A stretch of DNA of 64,000 nt from Bacillus marasmi (lineage in GTDB: Bacteria > Bacillota > Bacilli > Bacillales > Cytobacillaceae). The notes under the pieces are model-generated. The model was not told where the DNA came from. It searched no databases and worked only from the letters and a program-made list of their open reading frames with translations. The stretch spans positions 62,001-126,000 of the forward strand of contig NZ_LR656169.1 in NCBI RefSeq assembly GCF_902168435.1, read 5' to 3'. Numbering within the stretch: the stretch's first letter is position 1; every line of letters starts with the position of its first letter. The position numbers and the translations under genes are program-made. Of the stretch, positions 5,230 to 17,779 are shown piece by piece.

Positions 5230-5625
5230 TTGTTTGAAATCTATATAGACGGAGCAAGTGCAGGTAATCCAGGACCCAGTGGTGCAGGAATTTTTATAAA
5301 AGGGAACGGTGTTGTTGAAAAGCATTCGATTCCTCTCGGAAGTATGAGTAATCATGAAGCTGAATATTATGCCTTTATTAAGGCGTTAGAAATTTGCATC
5401 TCAAATGGCTACAAGGTTGTGTCGTTCCGAACAGATTCAGAGCTAGTCAATCGAGCGGTCGAAAAGGAGTTCGTTAAGAACAAGCAATTCGCCCCTCTAT
5501 TGGAGAAAGCCCTTGAGTTAACTAAGCAGTTCGATTTATTTTTTATGAAATGGATCCCTTCTGCACAAAATCGGCAAGCAGATGAGCTAGCTCGTGCTGC
5601 CATTAGACTGAATAATAAGGATTAA
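5230..5625 (+). CDS. ypdQ: RNase HI-like protein (YpdQ-like)
   Basis: 131 residues, a single RNase H domain from end to end: D7 (YIDGASAGNPGPSGAG), E45 (SNHEAEYYAF), D69 (FRTDSELV) and D118 (RQADELAR) form the DEDD set. The start is TTG at 5230, supported by GGAGG nine nt upstream and by the motif beginning at residue 5; no nearby ATG fits. B. subtilis YpdQ is 132 residues. It lacks the basic handle region of E. coli RNase HI, so its hybrid-cleaving activity may be weak or different. Confidence 0.88.
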   Translation: MFEIYIDGASAGNPGPSGAGIFIKGNGVVEKHSIPLGSMSNHEAEYYAFIKALEICISNGYKVVSFRTDSELVNRAVEKEFVKNKQFAPLLEKALELTKQFDLFFMKWIPSAQNRQADELARAAIRLNNKD

Positions 5626-5670
5626 TTCTTTTCCCCAGGCATATATGAAATCGATATTTAGAGGTGTTTC

Positions 5671-6588
5671 ATGAAAAAATCTATTATTGCTGATTTTAGC
5701 TTAATGCTCGTAGCTCTCGTTTGGGGAGCAACCTTCGTATTAGTACAAAATGCCATATCATTTTTACCACCGTTAACCTTCAATGGTGTTCGCTTTTTAA
5801 TGGCTTCAATTATTTTAGGAATAGTGCTTTTTGCATTCAAGAAAGATCAATTAGCCTACTATAATCACAAGCTTTTGGTTTCTGGAGTGATTATGGGCAT
5901 GTGGCTCTTTTTTGGCTATGCTACTCAAACAATGGGATTATTGTATACAACCTCATCGAATGCCGGATTTATTACTGGTCTTTCTGTTGTACTAGTCCCT
6001 TTATTCTCTGTTGTTCTGTTAAAACAGCGTCCAGGAATGAACGCAATGATTGGCGTCTTTTTGGCGACAACCGGGTTGTATTTATTAACAATGACCGGTT
6101 CAACTAGTCTTAACCTTGGTGATTTTCTCGTACTCCTATGTGCAGTAAGCTTTGCATTACAAATCATTGTCACGGGAAAATATAGCTCTTCTTATCCTAC
6201 TTTATTATTAACAGTGGTGCAAATTACCACAGTTTCCATTTTTTCACTTATTTCTGCGTTTTTATTCGAAGATTGGCCAAAAGCACTACAGCCAGATATT
6301 TTGTTTAAAAACGATGTTGTTGTCGCTTTGCTTGTCACTTCAATTTTCGCAACCGCGTTAGCGTTTTTTGCGCAGACAGCGTTTCAAAAGTATACGTCTG
6401 CAACCCATGTAGCGTTAATTTTTGCGCTTGAACCAGTGTTTGCTGCTATTACCGCATACTTCTGGGGAGGTGAACGCCTCTCTAGTGGTGCAATATTTGG
6501 CTGTGTATTCATTTTTATTGGGATGATTTTGGCTGAGTTACCAATGGGGAAATTTTTTAAGTGGGAAAAAAGAAATAAAGCAGCATAA
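5671..6588 (+). CDS. EamA/DMT-superfamily transporter
   Basis: 305 residues with about ten hydrophobic helices and two internally related EamA halves (ALVWGATFVLVQ at the N-terminus; ALEPVFAAITAYFWGGERLS in the second half, the typical EamA signature). It ends in a basic cytoplasmic tail. AGAGGTG precedes the ATG. The family contains exporters of amino acids and other metabolites; the substrate cannot be assigned. It sits 45 nt after ypdQ with no terminator between, so the two may be co-transcribed. Confidence 0.85.
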   Translation: MKKSIIADFSLMLVALVWGATFVLVQNAISFLPPLTFNGVRFLMASIILGIVLFAFKKDQLAYYNHKLLVSGVIMGMWLFFGYATQTMGLLYTTSSNAGFITGLSVVLVPLFSVVLLKQRPGMNAMIGVFLATTGLYLLTMTGSTSLNLGDFLVLLCAVSFALQIIVTGKYSSSYPTLLLTVVQITTVSIFSLISAFLFEDWPKALQPDILFKNDVVVALLVTSIFATALAFFAQTAFQKYTSATHVALIFALEPVFAAITAYFWGGERLSSGAIFGCVFIFIGMILAELPMGKFFKWEKRNKAA

Positions 6589-6602
6589 CAACAATCAAAA
6601 AT

Positions 6603-6647
6603 AGCAAGCGATGAGAAACGTTTTCGTTTTCCCTCCGCTTGCTTATT
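6603..6647. terminator. Bidirectional terminator
   Basis: Outer stem AGCAAGCG/CGCTTGCT (6603-6643) with an inner AAACG/CGTTT pairing, between two convergent genes and with A/T-rich flanks on both sides. Confidence 0.65.
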
Positions 6648-6929
6648 TTATATGGAGATTAATTCCTTCTTTTTCACAAAAAGTATGGCTTCTTTTCGGG
6701 TCTTCACTTCATTTGCAGAAAATGTTTCCAACAGTGAGATAAAAAAACTGCCTTCAAACTGGCGTTGAGCTTTTAGTGTTAACTCAATTGCAGCAATCAC
6801 TAATTCATCTGAGGAGTTCGTGTAAGTTTTTCCAAAATTTATAAAACCGATAGCATCCTCTTGAAATTGAAAACCCTTTCCTTGCAAAAAGCTAATGTAC
6901 TCATTTACGGTTTGCACTGACTCGACCAA
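6648..6929 (-). CDS. Conserved small Bacillaceae protein, 93 residues (possibly DUF6123)
   Basis: A soluble-looking 93-residue protein (FLQGKGFQFQEDAIGFINFG; SFFISLLETFSANEVKTRKE). It resembles small Bacillaceae proteins I associate with DUF6123, but this is from memory and tentative. Function unknown. The start is uncertain: TTG at 6929 touches a GGGAGAGGG stretch, while GTG at 6917 has that stretch 12 nt upstream. It ends at the convergent terminator. Confidence 0.65.
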   Translation of the reverse strand: MVESVQTVNEYISFLQGKGFQFQEDAIGFINFGKTYTNSSDELVIAAIELTLKAQRQFEGSFFISLLETFSANEVKTRKEAILFVKKKELISI

Positions 6930-10153: not shown

Positions 10154-10372
10154 TGAAATGTTCCCTCCATTAATTTGCTACAGGCATTTATATGCAGAAC
10201 ATAACAGTCTGTGCTTATTTTTCCAAATATAGGGAAAATCGTTTCAACTTTCCAAACATTTTCTATTATCTCTGAATAATACTTGTAATATCAAATGGTA
10301 GATTTATAATTAATACATAGGATTACCATTATTTGAGAGTAATTCTGTGAGTCAACTATAGGAGGTGATTTT

Positions 10373-11092
10373 ATTATTAGAAAAGTATTTCTGGTTTTTT
10401 TAGTATTTATTGGTTTTGCTGGTGTTGCTTTTTCAATTTACAGCATTTCTCACCAACAAATTCAATACCAGGAATCAGCACGTAAGTATGATAAGCTCCG
10501 AATTATTTACGAAAAATCTACCAACGCTTCTGAACAAAAAAATCATCACGCTGAACTACTCAAGCTTAACAAAGATTATGTCGGATGGATTGACATTTCG
10601 GACACTACCATCAACTACCCCATCGTAAAGGGAGACGATAACAACTTCTATCTCAGCCATAATTTTTATCAAGACCCTGACTTTGCCGGGGCAATCTTCA
10701 TGGATTCACAAAATTCTCTTAAAAACCTCGACAAAAATACCATCATTTATGGACACAACATGAAGGATAAAAGCATGTTTGGCAGCCTGAATAACTTCCT
10801 CGACCAAGACTTCTATGAAAATCATAAAAGGTTTACATTGGATACCCACCTCACTGAACATACATACACTTGGGATATATTTTCTGTATATGAAACAACC
10901 AATCTAAACTGGATGAAAACGAAATTCCAGAGTAATGATGATTTTTTATCCTTCTTAGATTCCATTAACAAAAGTTCTGACATAAAGACAAAAACACATA
11001 TTAAGGAAGAAGATTATATTCTCACATTATCTACATGCACAAGGAGCAATAGCGATGAACGTTTAATAATCCATGCAAAATTAATAAAGTGA
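10373..11092 (+). CDS. srtB: Class B sortase, apparently initiated at an ATT codon
   Basis: Read from 10373 the frame is open for 239 codons: a short basic N-terminus (IRK), one transmembrane anchor (about residues 4-24), then a complete class B sortase domain with YVGWIDISDTTINYPIV, H128 in IIYGHNM, C222 in TLSTCTR and R230 in DERLIIHA, the transpeptidase triad. No ATG, GTG or TTG exists in frame upstream of the ATG at 10700, which lies in the middle of the domain. A perfect GGAGGTGA (10361-10368) is 6 nt before ATT 10373 (9 nt before ATT 10376). So the start is a rare ATT, or one base is wrong in this sequence. The next gene, 10 nt on, is a likely substrate. Confidence 0.85.
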   Translation: MIRKVFLVFLVFIGFAGVAFSIYSISHQQIQYQESARKYDKLRIIYEKSTNASEQKNHHAELLKLNKDYVGWIDISDTTINYPIVKGDDNNFYLSHNFYQDPDFAGAIFMDSQNSLKNLDKNTIIYGHNMKDKSMFGSLNNFLDQDFYENHKRFTLDTHLTEHTYTWDIFSVYETTNLNWMKTKFQSNDDFLSFLDSINKSSDIKTKTHIKEEDYILTLSTCTRSNSDERLIIHAKLIK

Positions 11093-11102
11093 GGAAATTA
11101 AT

Positions 11103-12560
11103 ATGAAATTACAATCCAAATTATTAGTATTCTTCTCATTCCTATTTTGTTTTTTGATAACTCAAACAGTCTTCGCAGAAGATTCATCCTTACTCAAAAT
11201 CGATGTTACAACAGATAAAGAAGCATACTCTGAAGGTGATGAAGTAACATATAAACTTAACATTTCAAATCTTTCCGATTTAATAGCGAAAAATGTTGTT
11301 GTGACGAGCACGATTCCCGAAGGTTTAACTTTGATAAACCAAGACCTCAAAGTAGAAGGTAACAAGATCATTTGGAATTTAGACAAAATCACCCCTGCCA
11401 CTAATGTAAATTTAGAATTCAAAGCAAAACTTCCTGTTCCAACCACTCCTGTAACACCTCCACCGACTGAGGTGGATGATACAATTACTTTACCAGTTGT
11501 TACACCAGTTACTGTGAAACCTACTGCAACCGTAGCGCCAGAAACAGGTGATGACACCAATCTCGTTGGCTATTATATTCTGCTCGGATTATCAGCTGGA
11601 GTACTAACAATTGGGATTCGTGGACTCCGGAAAAAGAGTATTAAAAAAGAATTATTTGCCCTACTCGCTTTAGCATTACTACTTCCTTCAGCATCAGCGC
11701 CAAAAGCTGAAACCCAAGCTGAGCCACAGTTGGCGACCGCTTCTGTTTCCCATAAATTAGTAGTAAATAATAAAGAATTCGTTGTACAAGCAACAGTTGA
11801 AGCTACAATGGAAGAACCTCCAGCTCCTGGCACTATTTCTGGAACTATTACAAATGCAATTGATGGAGAAGGAGTCGAGGGGCTAACCCTAAAATTCCGT
11901 GAAGGTGAAAATAACACCACTGGAGAAGTTGTAGGTACAGTAACGACAAATGAAGAGGGTTCCTATGAAATTGAACTACTTGAAGGAACCTATACCATTG
12001 AAATTAGTGGAGATGGCTTCATTACTACCACAAAAGTAATCCAAGTAATTGGTAAACAGAGTATCGGGGATTTAAATGCTGCTGTTTCCCCTGTATTTGG
12101 TGAGGGACTTCGAATCGTATTGACTTGGGGAGGCAATCCTGAAGATTTAGATTCACACTTGAATGGTCCGACAGCTGATGGTGACCGCTTTGTTGTTTAT
12201 TATAGTAATCAGAGCTATTCTGATGAATTGAATGAAATCATTCTTGATGAGGATGATACTGATTCATACGGACCAGAAACAGTGACAGTCATAAAACATA
12301 TCAGTGATGGTATTTATGTTTATGGGGTTCATAAATATACAGATGAAGAGGAAAATGACCAAGTACTTTCCAATTCAGGCGCTAAGGTTGAGGTCTATAA
12401 CGGGGAAAGCTTACTCAATACCTTTTATGTTCCAGCTAATCAGAACGGAAATCTATGGAAAGTTTTTGAAATTTACAACGGTGAAATTCACCCAATCAAT
12501 CAAATCTATTTCCATGAAGATTTTGACAATGAGGTAGACCTATCGCCGACTCCTAGATAA
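11103..12560 (+). CDS. Surface protein with an internal LPXTG-like sorting signal and C-terminal CarboxypepD_reg/YfaP-like domains
   Basis: 485 residues. Order: signal peptide (1-25, cut near VFA-ED); a DUF11-like beta domain (30-110); Pro/Thr/Val linker (111-144); APETGDD (145-151), hydrophobic helix (153-172) and RKKSIKK (176-182), which together read as a complete sorting signal; then ELFALLALALLLPSASA (183-199), like a second signal peptide or membrane helix; a carboxypeptidase-regulatory beta-sandwich (about 228-310, GTISGTITNAIDGEGVEG); and a YfaP/DUF2135-like domain (LRIVLTWGGNPEDLDSHLNG to the end). A normal sorting signal is C-terminal, so this looks like two surface proteins in one frame. 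It follows the sortase gene by 10 nt. A terminator follows. Confidence 0.82.
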   Translation: MKLQSKLLVFFSFLFCFLITQTVFAEDSSLLKIDVTTDKEAYSEGDEVTYKLNISNLSDLIAKNVVVTSTIPEGLTLINQDLKVEGNKIIWNLDKITPATNVNLEFKAKLPVPTTPVTPPPTEVDDTITLPVVTPVTVKPTATVAPETGDDTNLVGYYILLGLSAGVLTIGIRGLRKKSIKKELFALLALALLLPSASAPKAETQAEPQLATASVSHKLVVNNKEFVVQATVEATMEEPPAPGTISGTITNAIDGEGVEGLTLKFREGENNTTGEVVGTVTTNEEGSYEIELLEGTYTIEISGDGFITTTKVIQVIGKQSIGDLNAAVSPVFGEGLRIVLTWGGNPEDLDSHLNGPTADGDRFVVYYSNQSYSDELNEIILDEDDTDSYGPETVTVIKHISDGIYVYGVHKYTDEEENDQVLSNSGAKVEVYNGESLLNTFYVPANQNGNLWKVFEIYNGEIHPINQIYFHEDFDNEVDLSPTPR

Positions 12561-12606: not shown

Positions 12607-12656
12607 GAAGGGCACCATCCAATCTTTCTTGGGTGGCGCCCTTCAATCTTTTTTAT
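12607..12656. terminator. Terminator after the sortase operon (also at the end of ypcP)
   Basis: Long imperfect stem GAAGGGCaCCAtCC / GGgTGGcGCCCTTC (12607-12644) followed on the plus strand by a T-rich run. The ypcP stop codon abuts it from the other side. Confidence 0.8.
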
Positions 12657-14034: not shown

Positions 14035-17000
14035 TTAGTTAAAATCGCGAATTTGCTTTTCAATTTCAAGTAGCTCTTCAATAGGGAACTCATCGCTAAG
14101 TGAGGCAATGATTCCTTTGTAATACTCATCAACTTGCTCGGAAATATGACTGATTAATTTTGCTGTTTCCGCTTCAAGTGCGCCAAGATAGAACGCTTTT
14201 GCTTGTTCACCTTCTAATTGTAAATATTGTTCTGCCGGATCTTCTAGAACCTTTTCCAGTTCCTCTTGCATAAATTTCTTCTCATTTTTCTCAAAAAATG
14301 CTTTCGCATTTTTGTAATAAGAGAGTGCCTTTTGGAATTGCTTCATATCCAATGACTGAAATGCAAGTTCCACCTGTAAACCATCCAATTTTTCCGGTTC
14401 AAATGAGCTGAAAGTTAAATATTGATTCTTCTCCTTAAGCTCTGTTGCTAATTGCTCTGATCGCTCTTTGAGGAGCTTGTTAATATATGCCTCAAGTCTT
14501 AAAGTAGTCGCTCTTATTTCTTGTGTAAAATCATAACCAACAGACTCAATTAACTCATTCAAGCAATGCTGAAGGGTTTTCTTAATATTTCGTCCATCCT
14601 CCTTCAGAACAGCAGGATTAAAGGATTCTTTAAAGAAATCGCCAAAACGGAAGAATACTCTTTGTTTGATGTAGTAAAGAAGTTCATCCGCTTCCTGAAC
14701 TAATCGTTTTTTCAGGAAGTCAGCATTTTGCAGCTCAATAAAGCTGTGGACTTCCTCATGTTCTGCAATTGCTGCCAAGCGTTTTCTTTCTTTAACCGAC
14801 TTGTCTTCTTGTGCAGAAGCTATCATTTGATTAAGTATTTGCACGGTTCGAGAGTGCTCAGCTTTCGCTGCATCGACTACCATTTCCTTTAAGTCACCTG
14901 AAATAAAGTGGTAGAAGGCATTTTCGAATATATTTATCCGTGAATCTTTCGAATCAAGTTGACCCATTTTTTCTTGAATTGCTAGCAAACTTGAAATCGC
15001 AAACATGCTTGGTTTTCTGATTCCATAGCTAACTAATTGATCCTTAACATATTCAATAACTTGCGACATTTCTTCATCACTGCTTGCTAAATCAATCGCG
15101 TTGATGATAAAGAACATCTTGTCAAGCTCAAAGGTGTCCTTAACCCGTCCTAATTGAATCAAGAACTCACGGTCTGCCTTCGAGAATGCATGGTTATAAT
15201 AGGTGACAAACAAGATCGCGTCAGATGATTTGATATATTCAAATGCAACATTCGTATGACGGGCATTGATAGAATCCGCTCCTGGAGTGTCAACCAATGT
15301 GATTCCTTCTTTAGTTAATGGACAATCGTAATAAACGTCAATCCATTCAACTAAACATGACTTTTCCTCCTGGGCAACGAAATCGCGAAATTCATTCAAA
15401 TCGGTTTCAATGATTTGTCCTAAGCTTGCTTCATAGTTTGCGTATCCACTATTAAATGCACGTAGGAAAGCGTAATGAACCTTGCTGTATGCATCTAAAT
15501 GTTCCTCTGTTCCTAACACCTTCACGATAGCTTTAAGGGCATCTGTAAAATCTCTAGCACCAAAATCAAACACTTCCAGTGAACGTCTTACATCATCAAG
15601 CAATGCATCTGGATTTTTCAATTTTACTAACACTGTTCCATGTGGATGCTTCGAATCGACTGGTTTAATCCTGTTAATCGCTGCTGTTGTTGGATTTGGT
15701 GATACCGGTAATATCTTCTCACCAATTAAAGCATTAGCAAAAGATGATTTTCCGGCACTGAAAGCACCAAATAATGCAACAGTAAATTGTTGACTTTCTA
15801 GTCGATCAGCACGATGCTTCAATTCTACTGATACCTTTTCTAACCCAGGAACTGCTTTAACTTTGTTAGCTGAGTGACGTAAATGGGAAACAATTCGCTC
15901 AACCTGTTCTTTGGAGATTACAGGTGCTGAATCAACATGATGCTCTTCCACGGCAATCTCAACCTCAAGCTTAGCTTCGTCTGTCGCACTTTCTATAAAA
16001 GAATCTCGAATAATTTCTACATCCTCTTCGAGAGCTTGAGCTAAGTTATCAGCCAACTCCTTATAGTTGCTGAAATCTAATTCTTCATTTAATGCTTGAT
16101 TAATCGTTTTTTCTGTTTGCTCATGGCGATTGAAAATTGAATTTAATTGATCAATTGCTGTTTGCCATTCATTCAATTGCTCTAACTCATTTTTTACATC
16201 TTTCATTGCAATTGCATTTTTTCTTGTTAATTCTTGCAAATATAGCTCTTTCCACATTGAAATAGCATTTCTAGATAGCCTTTTAATGGAACCTGACACA
16301 TCATTTGTATAGTTTAATACATACTCCCCAGATAGCATTGCCCCTGGTTTTAGATTATTTTCTAATAAATCATGAGAGATTGTCACTTGAATTGATTGTG
16401 CAGCTTCCATTAGTTCTGGCTTTTCTGCATTGTTTTCTTTTAATATCTTTAAGGCAAGCTGGCGCAAATGCCATTCAACCTGCGATTTGACTCTATCAGC
16501 TAGCTCAATAAATAAACTTTCGCGTCTTTGATTGCGCTCTTGTTCAGTTTTATTTTTTGAAAAGAAAAGTCCCACTTTAAAATTAGGTTGACAGGATTCA
16601 AGATATTGCTTTGCTAGTTCACGGGTTTGAAATGGCATAATATAAGCGTTATCAAGGATTTCATCAACTTCGTCGTTGATTTCCAAGCTTTTTTGCTCAA
16701 CAGTTGCCTTTAACTCCTCAAGCATTTTTTCAATTTGATCAATTCGTTCTTTTAGGCCTAGTCGTTCAGACTCAGTTAGTTCTGTTAACTTACCTTCAAG
16801 TATATTAATTGATGTCTCATCTTGCTCTTTAATGATTTTCAAGTGGTCATTTGTTAATTTAATTAACGAATGTAAAATGGTTTCTGGCAAACTTTCTTCT
16901 CGTCGATTTATCTTTTCATGAAGCAATTGTTGCAATGCTTCAAATTGATTGTGAGAATTATCTGGAAATTTAAGTGATGTATACAGAATGTGCTCAGGTC

Positions 17001-17691
17001 TTACTCCCCATGACGCAAACGATTGTACAACACTATTTTGGAATCCTTCGTAACTCAGTTCTTCATCACGGTGCTTATCGATTTGATTGATAACTAAGCA
17101 CAATTGTTTTCCAGCTTGAGTTAATTCTTTTGTAAAAAGGAAATTCACTTCGGATTGGACGTGATTATAATCCATTACATAAAAAATGAGATCGGCCAAA
17201 TGTAGTGCAGACTCGGTTGCAATACGGTGGGCATCATCAGTGGAATCAATCCCCGGTGTATCCATGATGATGACATTGTTAGGAAGACTTGAATTTTGAT
17301 GACTAATTTCGACCGCTTCGATTTCATCGCCATCTTTACAATACGTCTTTACTTTTTCGTAATCATACGGTGCTAAATAAACCCGTGGTTTCCCCTTTTT
17401 AAAAATAACCTTTGCATACTCCTCACCCGTTTTTACCTTTACTAGGTTTGCACTCGTTGGAATCGGGCTTGATGGCAGGAGATTTTCACCAACTAGTCGG
17501 TTAATCATCGTTGATTTACCAGCTGAAAAGTGTCCGCAAAATGCAATCGAAAATTCCTGCTTGCTTAGCTTTTTGGCGAGCTGCTCCGCTCTGTTAGCTG
17601 TTTGTTCATCTTGATTCTGTTTAAAAAGATCGTATAACACTGCAATCTTTCCAAGTAAAGATTGCTCCTTTTGTTCGATAATTTGTACCAT
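14035..17691 (-). CDS. dynA: Bacterial dynamin-like GTPase DynA (two fused dynamin units)
   Basis: 1218 residues (B. subtilis DynA/YpbR 1193). Two complete GTPase units: the first with GHFSAGKST (53-61), a DTPGIDS switch and NQID; the second with GAFSAGKSS near residue 640, DTPGADS and NAID. Each is followed by long helical/coiled-coil stalk and paddle regions. The protein tethers and fuses membranes and protects against membrane stress and phage. The start at 17691 (MVQIIEQKEQS) follows AAGGGGA by about 6 nt; 7 extra residues upstream are unsupported. It is followed by the 59-residue Cys protein in the same transcript. Confidence 0.95.
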   Translation of the reverse strand: MVQIIEQKEQSLLGKIAVLYDLFKQNQDEQTANRAEQLAKKLSKQEFSIAFCGHFSAGKSTMINRLVGENLLPSSPIPTSANLVKVKTGEEYAKVIFKKGKPRVYLAPYDYEKVKTYCKDGDEIEAVEISHQNSSLPNNVIIMDTPGIDSTDDAHRIATESALHLADLIFYVMDYNHVQSEVNFLFTKELTQAGKQLCLVINQIDKHRDEELSYEGFQNSVVQSFASWGVRPEHILYTSLKFPDNSHNQFEALQQLLHEKINRREESLPETILHSLIKLTNDHLKIIKEQDETSINILEGKLTELTESERLGLKERIDQIEKMLEELKATVEQKSLEINDEVDEILDNAYIMPFQTRELAKQYLESCQPNFKVGLFFSKNKTEQERNQRRESLFIELADRVKSQVEWHLRQLALKILKENNAEKPELMEAAQSIQVTISHDLLENNLKPGAMLSGEYVLNYTNDVSGSIKRLSRNAISMWKELYLQELTRKNAIAMKDVKNELEQLNEWQTAIDQLNSIFNRHEQTEKTINQALNEELDFSNYKELADNLAQALEEDVEIIRDSFIESATDEAKLEVEIAVEEHHVDSAPVISKEQVERIVSHLRHSANKVKAVPGLEKVSVELKHRADRLESQQFTVALFGAFSAGKSSFANALIGEKILPVSPNPTTAAINRIKPVDSKHPHGTVLVKLKNPDALLDDVRRSLEVFDFGARDFTDALKAIVKVLGTEEHLDAYSKVHYAFLRAFNSGYANYEASLGQIIETDLNEFRDFVAQEEKSCLVEWIDVYYDCPLTKEGITLVDTPGADSINARHTNVAFEYIKSSDAILFVTYYNHAFSKADREFLIQLGRVKDTFELDKMFFIINAIDLASSDEEMSQVIEYVKDQLVSYGIRKPSMFAISSLLAIQEKMGQLDSKDSRINIFENAFYHFISGDLKEMVVDAAKAEHSRTVQILNQMIASAQEDKSVKERKRLAAIAEHEEVHSFIELQNADFLKKRLVQEADELLYYIKQRVFFRFGDFFKESFNPAVLKEDGRNIKKTLQHCLNELIESVGYDFTQEIRATTLRLEAYINKLLKERSEQLATELKEKNQYLTFSSFEPEKLDGLQVELAFQSLDMKQFQKALSYYKNAKAFFEKNEKKFMQEELEKVLEDPAEQYLQLEGEQAKAFYLGALEAETAKLISHISEQVDEYYKGIIASLSDEFPIEELLEIEKQIRDFN

Positions 17692-17779
17692 AAAAATCCC
17701 CTTGTCCCCCATTTATTCTATATTCTTTTATTTTATCCGATTTTTCTAACTTTTCCTACAAAAATGTATTATCTTTGAA

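Follow-up and report, generated by a model that had tools for sequence, protein, structure and literature searches.

Sorting signals are defined as C-terminal (PMC4155245, PMC5569036), and screens for them may be confined to that end: a survey of adhesins covered the last 50 residues (PMC8286594). A conserved class of proteins with an internal signal would escape screens limited to the C-terminus. The window analysed here, a 64 000-nucleotide stretch of the Bacillus marasmi genome (contig NZ_LR656169.1), encodes a protein with a candidate signal of this kind in the middle of its chain, followed by a second segment that resembles a signal peptide. Is this arrangement genuine, and what would a sorting signal do in such a position?

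Organization of the gene and its product

Positions 11103-12560 of the plus strand, which carries all parts of the sortase and polyprotein genes described here, form one uninterrupted frame of 485 aa with no stop, as seen in both the ORF list and the sequence. The product begins with an N-terminal signal peptide recognized in the sequence (residues 1-25, VFA|ED; 11103-11177), whose A25 is invariant in eight of eight aligned copies. A DUF11 domain follows (residues 31-114; 11193-11444), matched by Pfam PF01345 at 6.1e-9 with 36.7 bits against a cut-off of 24.6; the match stops at profile position 85 of 114. The scan covered the window copy and seven other members of the family described below, and the cut-off was exceeded in all seven. 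Beyond a Pro/Thr-rich linker lie the motif APETGDD (residues 145-151; 11535-11555), with a predicted sortase cut between T148 and G149, and a hydrophobic stretch of 19 aa assigned from the sequence as the sorting-signal helix (residues 154-172; 11562-11618; helix at 151-173 in the full-length model).

The next element, also read from the sequence, is a basic loop, RGLRKKSIKKE (residues 173-183; 11619-11651), which is predicted to be cytoplasmic and doubles as the n-region of a second signal-peptide-like segment (residues 184-202; 11652-11708). The chain continues with a beta-hairpin (residues 209-237; 11727-11813) that includes SHKLVVNNKEFVVQATVEA, a carboxypeptidase regulatory-like (transthyretin-like) domain (residues 244-320; 11832-12062; Pfam CarboxypepD_reg, 2.8e-11), and a last domain containing LTWGGNPEDLDSHL (residues ~337-468; 12111-12506), for which no Pfam family was reported. 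The sequence-only reading had described a mid-chain sorting signal and a second signal-peptide-like segment within one protein, and the single 485-residue frame, together with its counterparts in relatives, confirms that description. Three further features emerged beyond that reading: an upstream sortase gene (10376-11092), two kinds of C-terminal half and a shared hairpin.

Conservation of the fused frame

Searches with the window protein found other relatives besides a paralogue encoded in the window genome. A contig search returned an orthologue in the Bacillus sp. DNRA2 assembly (L031), 73% identical over the full length, and two short matches to the DUF11 region. A core profile extending from the sorting motif to the hairpin was run against 193 genomes of the family and against overlapping samples drawn at three wider levels (order, 397 genomes; class, 398; phylum, 299), as well as 159, 7 and 19 genomes of three other families. 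The family itself holds eight intact loci in five genomes (134-149 bits; next match 29.5). The order sample added five intact members, for the weakest of which (G312) the first profile gave 49.9 bits and the second 106.9, and a further search with the second profile added four more at 79-106 bits. This brings the number of intact members among the sampled genomes to 17 loci in 14 genomes. No new strong member was found in the class (398) or phylum (299) sample. Thus, the combination of sortase and polyprotein is rare in the samples, yet its carriers come from five families within one order. Each of the 17 intact members has a single frame and the same layout. A decayed locus of the sortase-polyprotein kind, broken into fragments, is present in G987 (L120, ~5239-6840; L094).

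The sequence-only reading had suggested a search for separate homologues of the two halves. No separate-gene version was found in the loci checked, among them 50 further loci, some overlapping, that were inspected for the DUF11 module; weak matches entered this check where a locus had been assigned. Within the 50, only the paralogue of the window protein (L103), which is no weak match, and the decayed L094 in G987 have the module. C-terminal domains alone do occur elsewhere (G037 and G007, see below). Several weak profile matches were rejected as members: L083, L084, L086, L087, L121 and L123 either are ordinary surface proteins whose class B signals are C-terminal or come from loci containing genes for such proteins, and the loci of L085 and L122 have no such surface-protein gene.

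Comparison of the window copy with its 73% identical orthologue (G004) gave a dN/dS of 0.10 overall; by part, the ratio is 0.09 in the first signal peptide and also in the C-terminal part, 0.11 in DUF11, 0.15 in the motif and first helix and 0.19 in the loop and second signal. These ratios are rough at the dS values of 1.2-2.3 observed for this pair, and in the linker and in the hairpin stretch synonymous change is saturated, so that no ratio is computable for either. For the closer pair G000_B/G004_B, the values are 0.34 overall, 0.10 for the motif and first helix and 0.26 for the loop and second signal. The hairpin stretch in this pair has a ratio of 0.72, and therefore shows no sign there of strong constraint.

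The internal sorting signal

Only five columns are invariant in the 17-row alignment of the core: the P, T, G and D of the motif, and an Ala at the -1 position of the expected signal-peptidase site. The motif, a hydrophobic span and basic residues occur in that order in all 17 members of the alignment; a script resolved 16 of them and missed G458. The basic loop between the two hydrophobic segments has 4-11 residues in the 16 resolved members, and the loop of G458 is seen in the alignment. In every member ~300 or more residues follow the loop, which places the signal away from the C-terminus. When a profile of class B-type signals was run on the window genome, two places scored below E 1, both of them internal, and the next matches had E values of 2.4 and 6.2.

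These internal signals resemble class B sorting signals. Conventional class B substrates, such as those of C. difficile SrtB and the proteins of L083, L123 and L084, whose C-terminal signals NPQTGDDTNIFLY, NPQTGDDTNILLY and NPQTGDTTNIMLY, respectively, came from the same searches, have the same succession of motif, helix and basic residues and likewise a class B sortase. They differ from the polyproteins in carrying (S/P)PxTG or NPxTG, with the signal at the C-terminus, whereas the polyproteins mostly have A before PxTG and continue after the signal with a predicted second export signal and ~300 to 1100 residues.

A listed substrate of C. difficile SrtB, CD630_03860, has the sequence SPKTGDNTN, and the enzyme cleaved four peptides (SPKTG, PPKTG, SPSTG, SPQTG) and left LPETG and NPQTN uncut; APxTG is absent from the peptides reported in the part of that study available (PMC4155245). 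In C. difficile cells, two proteins with SPSTG and SPQTG were neither cleaved nor anchored (PMC5569036). We consider it likely that a sortase cuts at the internal site of the polyproteins.

The adjoining sortase gene

A gene for a class B sortase ends ten bases upstream of the polyprotein gene. Callers restricted to ATG, GTG and TTG put its start at 10700, and with this start, which is the one in the ORF list, the protein is truncated to 130 aa; the frame is open from 10343. The most likely start is an ATT at 10376 (or 10373), which gives a protein of 238 aa (10376-11092), and a Shine-Dalgarno sequence, AGGAGGTGAT, is seen directly at 10360-10369 as a 10-base match to the scan consensus. With the start at ATT 10376, solved sortase B chains are matched over residues 2-238, the best at 3.6e-48. 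The sortase_srtB profile, run on the window sortase as the single representative of the 17 partners, scored the truncated ORF at 1.9e-37 and 128.9 bits, below the whole-protein cut-off of 153.75.

All 17 intact polyprotein genes have a class B-type sortase gene just upstream, at a distance of -14 to +184 nt. The catalytic H, C and R fall in invariant columns of an alignment of the 17 partner sortases. The partners belong to one family, those from other loci being 46-71% identical to the window sortase, and a tree that also included five conventional class B sortases places all 17 together on the same side of a branch supported at 100/100. Of the six sortase genes in the window genome, the two that adjoin polyproteins have the lowest scores with a general sortase profile, a comparison of scores and not of class for the other four. 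A search of 397 genomes with a profile of the 17 partner sortases gave seven matches scoring 303-327 bits, all of them neighbours of a polyprotein gene; the match after these reached 234 bits. All seven had contributed to the profile, and the result therefore says no more than that orphans of this type did not turn up. Distances between sortases correlate with distances between modules (r 0.71-0.72; none of 5000 permutations was as high), a correlation that common descent alone would give.

An Ile codon appears to be the start of most partner sortases: the codon at the start position is ATT, ATC or ATA in 15 of the 17, with ATG in G002 and GTG in G312. Starts were placed by hand at the basic N-terminus, and another start is possible in G000_B and G004_A. 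Most of the Ile codons lie behind a Shine-Dalgarno sequence, that of G992 being poor. The sortases of the window, G011, G495 and G935 have no in-frame standard start codon ahead of the membrane segment. A comparison set consisted of 34 other matches to the sortase profile, 24 of them with loci; among the 21 of these 24 that could be resolved, a standard start codon always lies upstream. In S. aureus, infC, cvfC1 and ccpN are described as having AUU or AUA starts behind extended Shine-Dalgarno sequences, with a yield below that of AUG where measured (PMC13009471). By analogy with this lower yield, the Ile starts suggest that production of the sortase is probably low.

The second signal-peptide-like segment

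The expected signal-peptidase site after the second hydrophobic segment has Ala at -1 in all 17 members (A202 in the window copy). The -3 position is A or V in 15 of the 17 rows; G002 has I there, and the window copy, whose site is the poorest of the set, has P. In the window copy, Pro occupies position -3 for a cut after A202 and position +1 for a cut after A199, so that the cut may be weak, shifted (S198/A199) or absent. Release exactly at ASA, one option in the sequence-only reading, is unlikely in this copy, as Pro comes next. The signal-peptidase step thus appears to be the weakest link for the window copy, with S198/A199 as a possible site. For most members, we regard a cut by signal peptidase as on balance probable.

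Kyte-Doolittle means over 19 residues reach at least 1.95 in the first helix, 1.55-2.49 in the second segments and at most 1.50 in the C-terminal halves. The scale alone therefore separates the second segments from the C-terminal halves only narrowly. A membrane anchor at the C-terminus was rejected on the maximum of 1.50 compared with at least 1.95 for the first helix. In both structural models, the helix of the second segment has 13 residues, compared with 21-23 for the first, at low confidence. We also rejected an independent start of translation for the C-terminal half, as the window copy has no in-frame ATG, GTG or TTG between the motif and the second signal. Across the members, seven such codons have a Shine-Dalgarno match of at least four bases, and they occur only in G003_D (three), G011 (two) and G312 (two).

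C-terminal halves and the shared hairpin

Two kinds of C-terminal half were distinguished. Ten of the 17 members end in carboxypeptidase-regulatory and DLDSHL domains, four of them being much longer proteins of 1129-1142 aa, and seven carry TSP3-type repeats and a VWA domain. Assignment was by Pfam scan for eight members (three of the first kind and five of the second) and by eye for the other nine. An alpha/beta-hydrolase-like match was present in four of the five scanned members of the second kind and was only weak in G011. No match between the two kinds was found by BLASTP at E 1e-3 with the sequences behind the hairpin. The window C-terminal domains also occur on other proteins, at 5319-6758 of L038 (G037) and 3668-6994 of L039 (G007), where only that part matches; such domains therefore travel. 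Four plasmid records match the C-terminal domains only, none over 80% of the query, with 33-42% identity in the region of the last domain.

Directly after the second signal, the pattern THxLTINxKEYxxxTTVEA is recognizable in all 17 members, whatever the C-terminal half. A hairpin common to otherwise unrelated halves may be expected to serve the module rather than its passenger. AlphaFold2 models were built from an input of two sequences, and that of the full-length protein is of poor quality (pLDDT 51, pTM 0.31). In a model of residues 26-242, the DUF11 sandwich is completed by the hairpin (pLDDT 74-87), which lies beyond both predicted cut sites. All 50 structural matches listed for this model run from model residue 5 or earlier to 197 or later, and they align 95-108 residues within one target stretch of 97-145 residues, compared with ~86 for DUF11 alone; for 36 of the 50, the alignment omitted long stretches of low confidence. 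When the hairpin was appended to the N-terminal part, the score with the DUF11 profile moved by +0.4, -0.5 and +2.0 bits in three members, which is no clear gain, and in G011 and G002 the profile reaches position 110-111 of 114 without the hairpin. That the products are clamped by a split domain, with the hairpin packed into DUF11 as modelled, is a tentative proposal to which we give slightly less weight than to its opposite.

Proposed maturation and alternative explanations

The same layout and an adjoining sortase gene recur among the relatives, and the protein thus looks like one made for cutting into two surface parts. We lean modestly towards a dedicated class B sortase with a polyprotein substrate, in which a sortase cut is accompanied by a probable signal-peptidase cut and the products are perhaps clamped. 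The N-terminal signal peptide would export the DUF11 part, and the first helix and basic loop would stop transfer. The second signal would restart export of the C-terminal half, giving a predicted membrane hairpin with both ends outside. Sortase B would cut PxT|G and link DUF11 to peptidoglycan, and signal peptidase I would probably cut after the second signal, freeing the C-terminal part. The two cuts together would excise a membrane hairpin of ~54 residues, and the second signal would turn a membrane remnant into an exported product. The beta-hairpin of the C-terminal part may pack into the DUF11 sandwich to form a non-covalent pair, and we infer that the C-terminal part is displayed on the wall through DUF11. 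The sequence-only reading had proposed a double-cut polyprotein; the fused frame and adjoining sortase gene in all 17 members, the invariant PxTGD and the invariant -1 Ala support that proposal, and the cleavage itself we infer. The picture as a whole would be a new maturation route, with two cuts, a discarded membrane hairpin and halves joined by the beta-hairpin, operating as a portable wall-display platform with exchanged C-terminal domains and with its sortase kept low by a conserved Ile start. As a complete account, this is speculative and rather doubtful.

If the sortase were the only enzyme to cut, the second segment would be a true membrane span, and DUF11 on the wall and a membrane-anchored C-terminal half would tie wall to membrane. 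The poor signal-peptidase site of the window copy is in keeping with this, as is an artificial C. difficile fusion, CD3392-CwpV, in which two repeats were placed behind the signal: cleavage depended on srtB and the trailing part was found predominantly in the membrane fraction (PMC5569036). The fusion resembles the polyprotein in that protein behind a sortase B signal did not block cleavage; unlike the polyprotein, it was engineered, and no second signal peptide is described for it in that text (PMC5569036). The Ala at -1 in every member, A or V at -3 in 15 of the 17 and the short second helix (13 residues compared with 21-23 in both low-confidence models) argue against a single cut, which we judge fairly improbable. 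A protein that is not processed at all, residing in the membrane as a surface protein with a helix hairpin inserted into DUF11 and an incidental PxTGD, is quite unlikely. The modelled domain does form with the insertion in place, but the motif is invariant and under purifying selection, and every intact member has a class B-type sortase beside it.

The two parts do resemble two secreted proteins end to end, and the sequence-only reading had allowed that a frameshift or lost stop joined two genes or that a sequencing error produced the frame. A recent event of either sort is highly improbable. The same fused frame is present in the 73% identical full-length orthologue, which comes from a different assembly (DNRA2), and in 15 other intact members, and the search for a separate-gene version was negative in the loci checked. 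Selection acts on both sides of the junction and across it (dN/dS 0.15-0.19), and the stretch between motif and second signal of the window copy is free of in-frame ATG, GTG and TTG codons.

Relation to known systems

The cytochrome b/c1 precursor FbcH is a bacterial chain that signal peptidase cuts at an internal signal to yield two products. Like FbcH, the polyprotein is one chain, with a predicted internal export signal and two predicted products; unlike the polyprotein, FbcH involves no sortase. In pili, donor-strand complementation lets a strand of one chain complete an Ig-like domain of another. The polyprotein would be similar if the split-domain model holds, with the difference that donor and acceptor would both derive from one precursor, on either side of two cut sites. 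The parts are thus known, and the arrangement was not found in searches of open-licence PMC text: these yielded neither a natural internal sorting signal nor a report of sortase B with DUF11, which does not establish absence from print. A class with internal signals suggests that a sortase can act as a precursor-processing enzyme. A split domain, if true, would provide a means of attaching a domain to the wall non-covalently and a possible display tool in laboratory Bacillus; if shown, it would make the polyprotein more than a variant of known sorting-signal proteins.

Genomic surroundings

Behind the polyprotein gene, a GC-rich inverted repeat followed by T-rich sequence is seen directly at 12610-12641. 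The terminator scan did not list this repeat, and promoter and terminator scans gave no more sites than in shuffled sequences. Neighbouring genes on the opposite strand encode a PAF-acetylhydrolase-like protein, a cupin protein weakly matching rubrerythrin, a 5'-3' exonuclease and a dynamin-family protein, with no obvious link to the sortase-polyprotein pair. A protein of 1225 residues encoded at 14035-17712 has two dynamin-family stretches.
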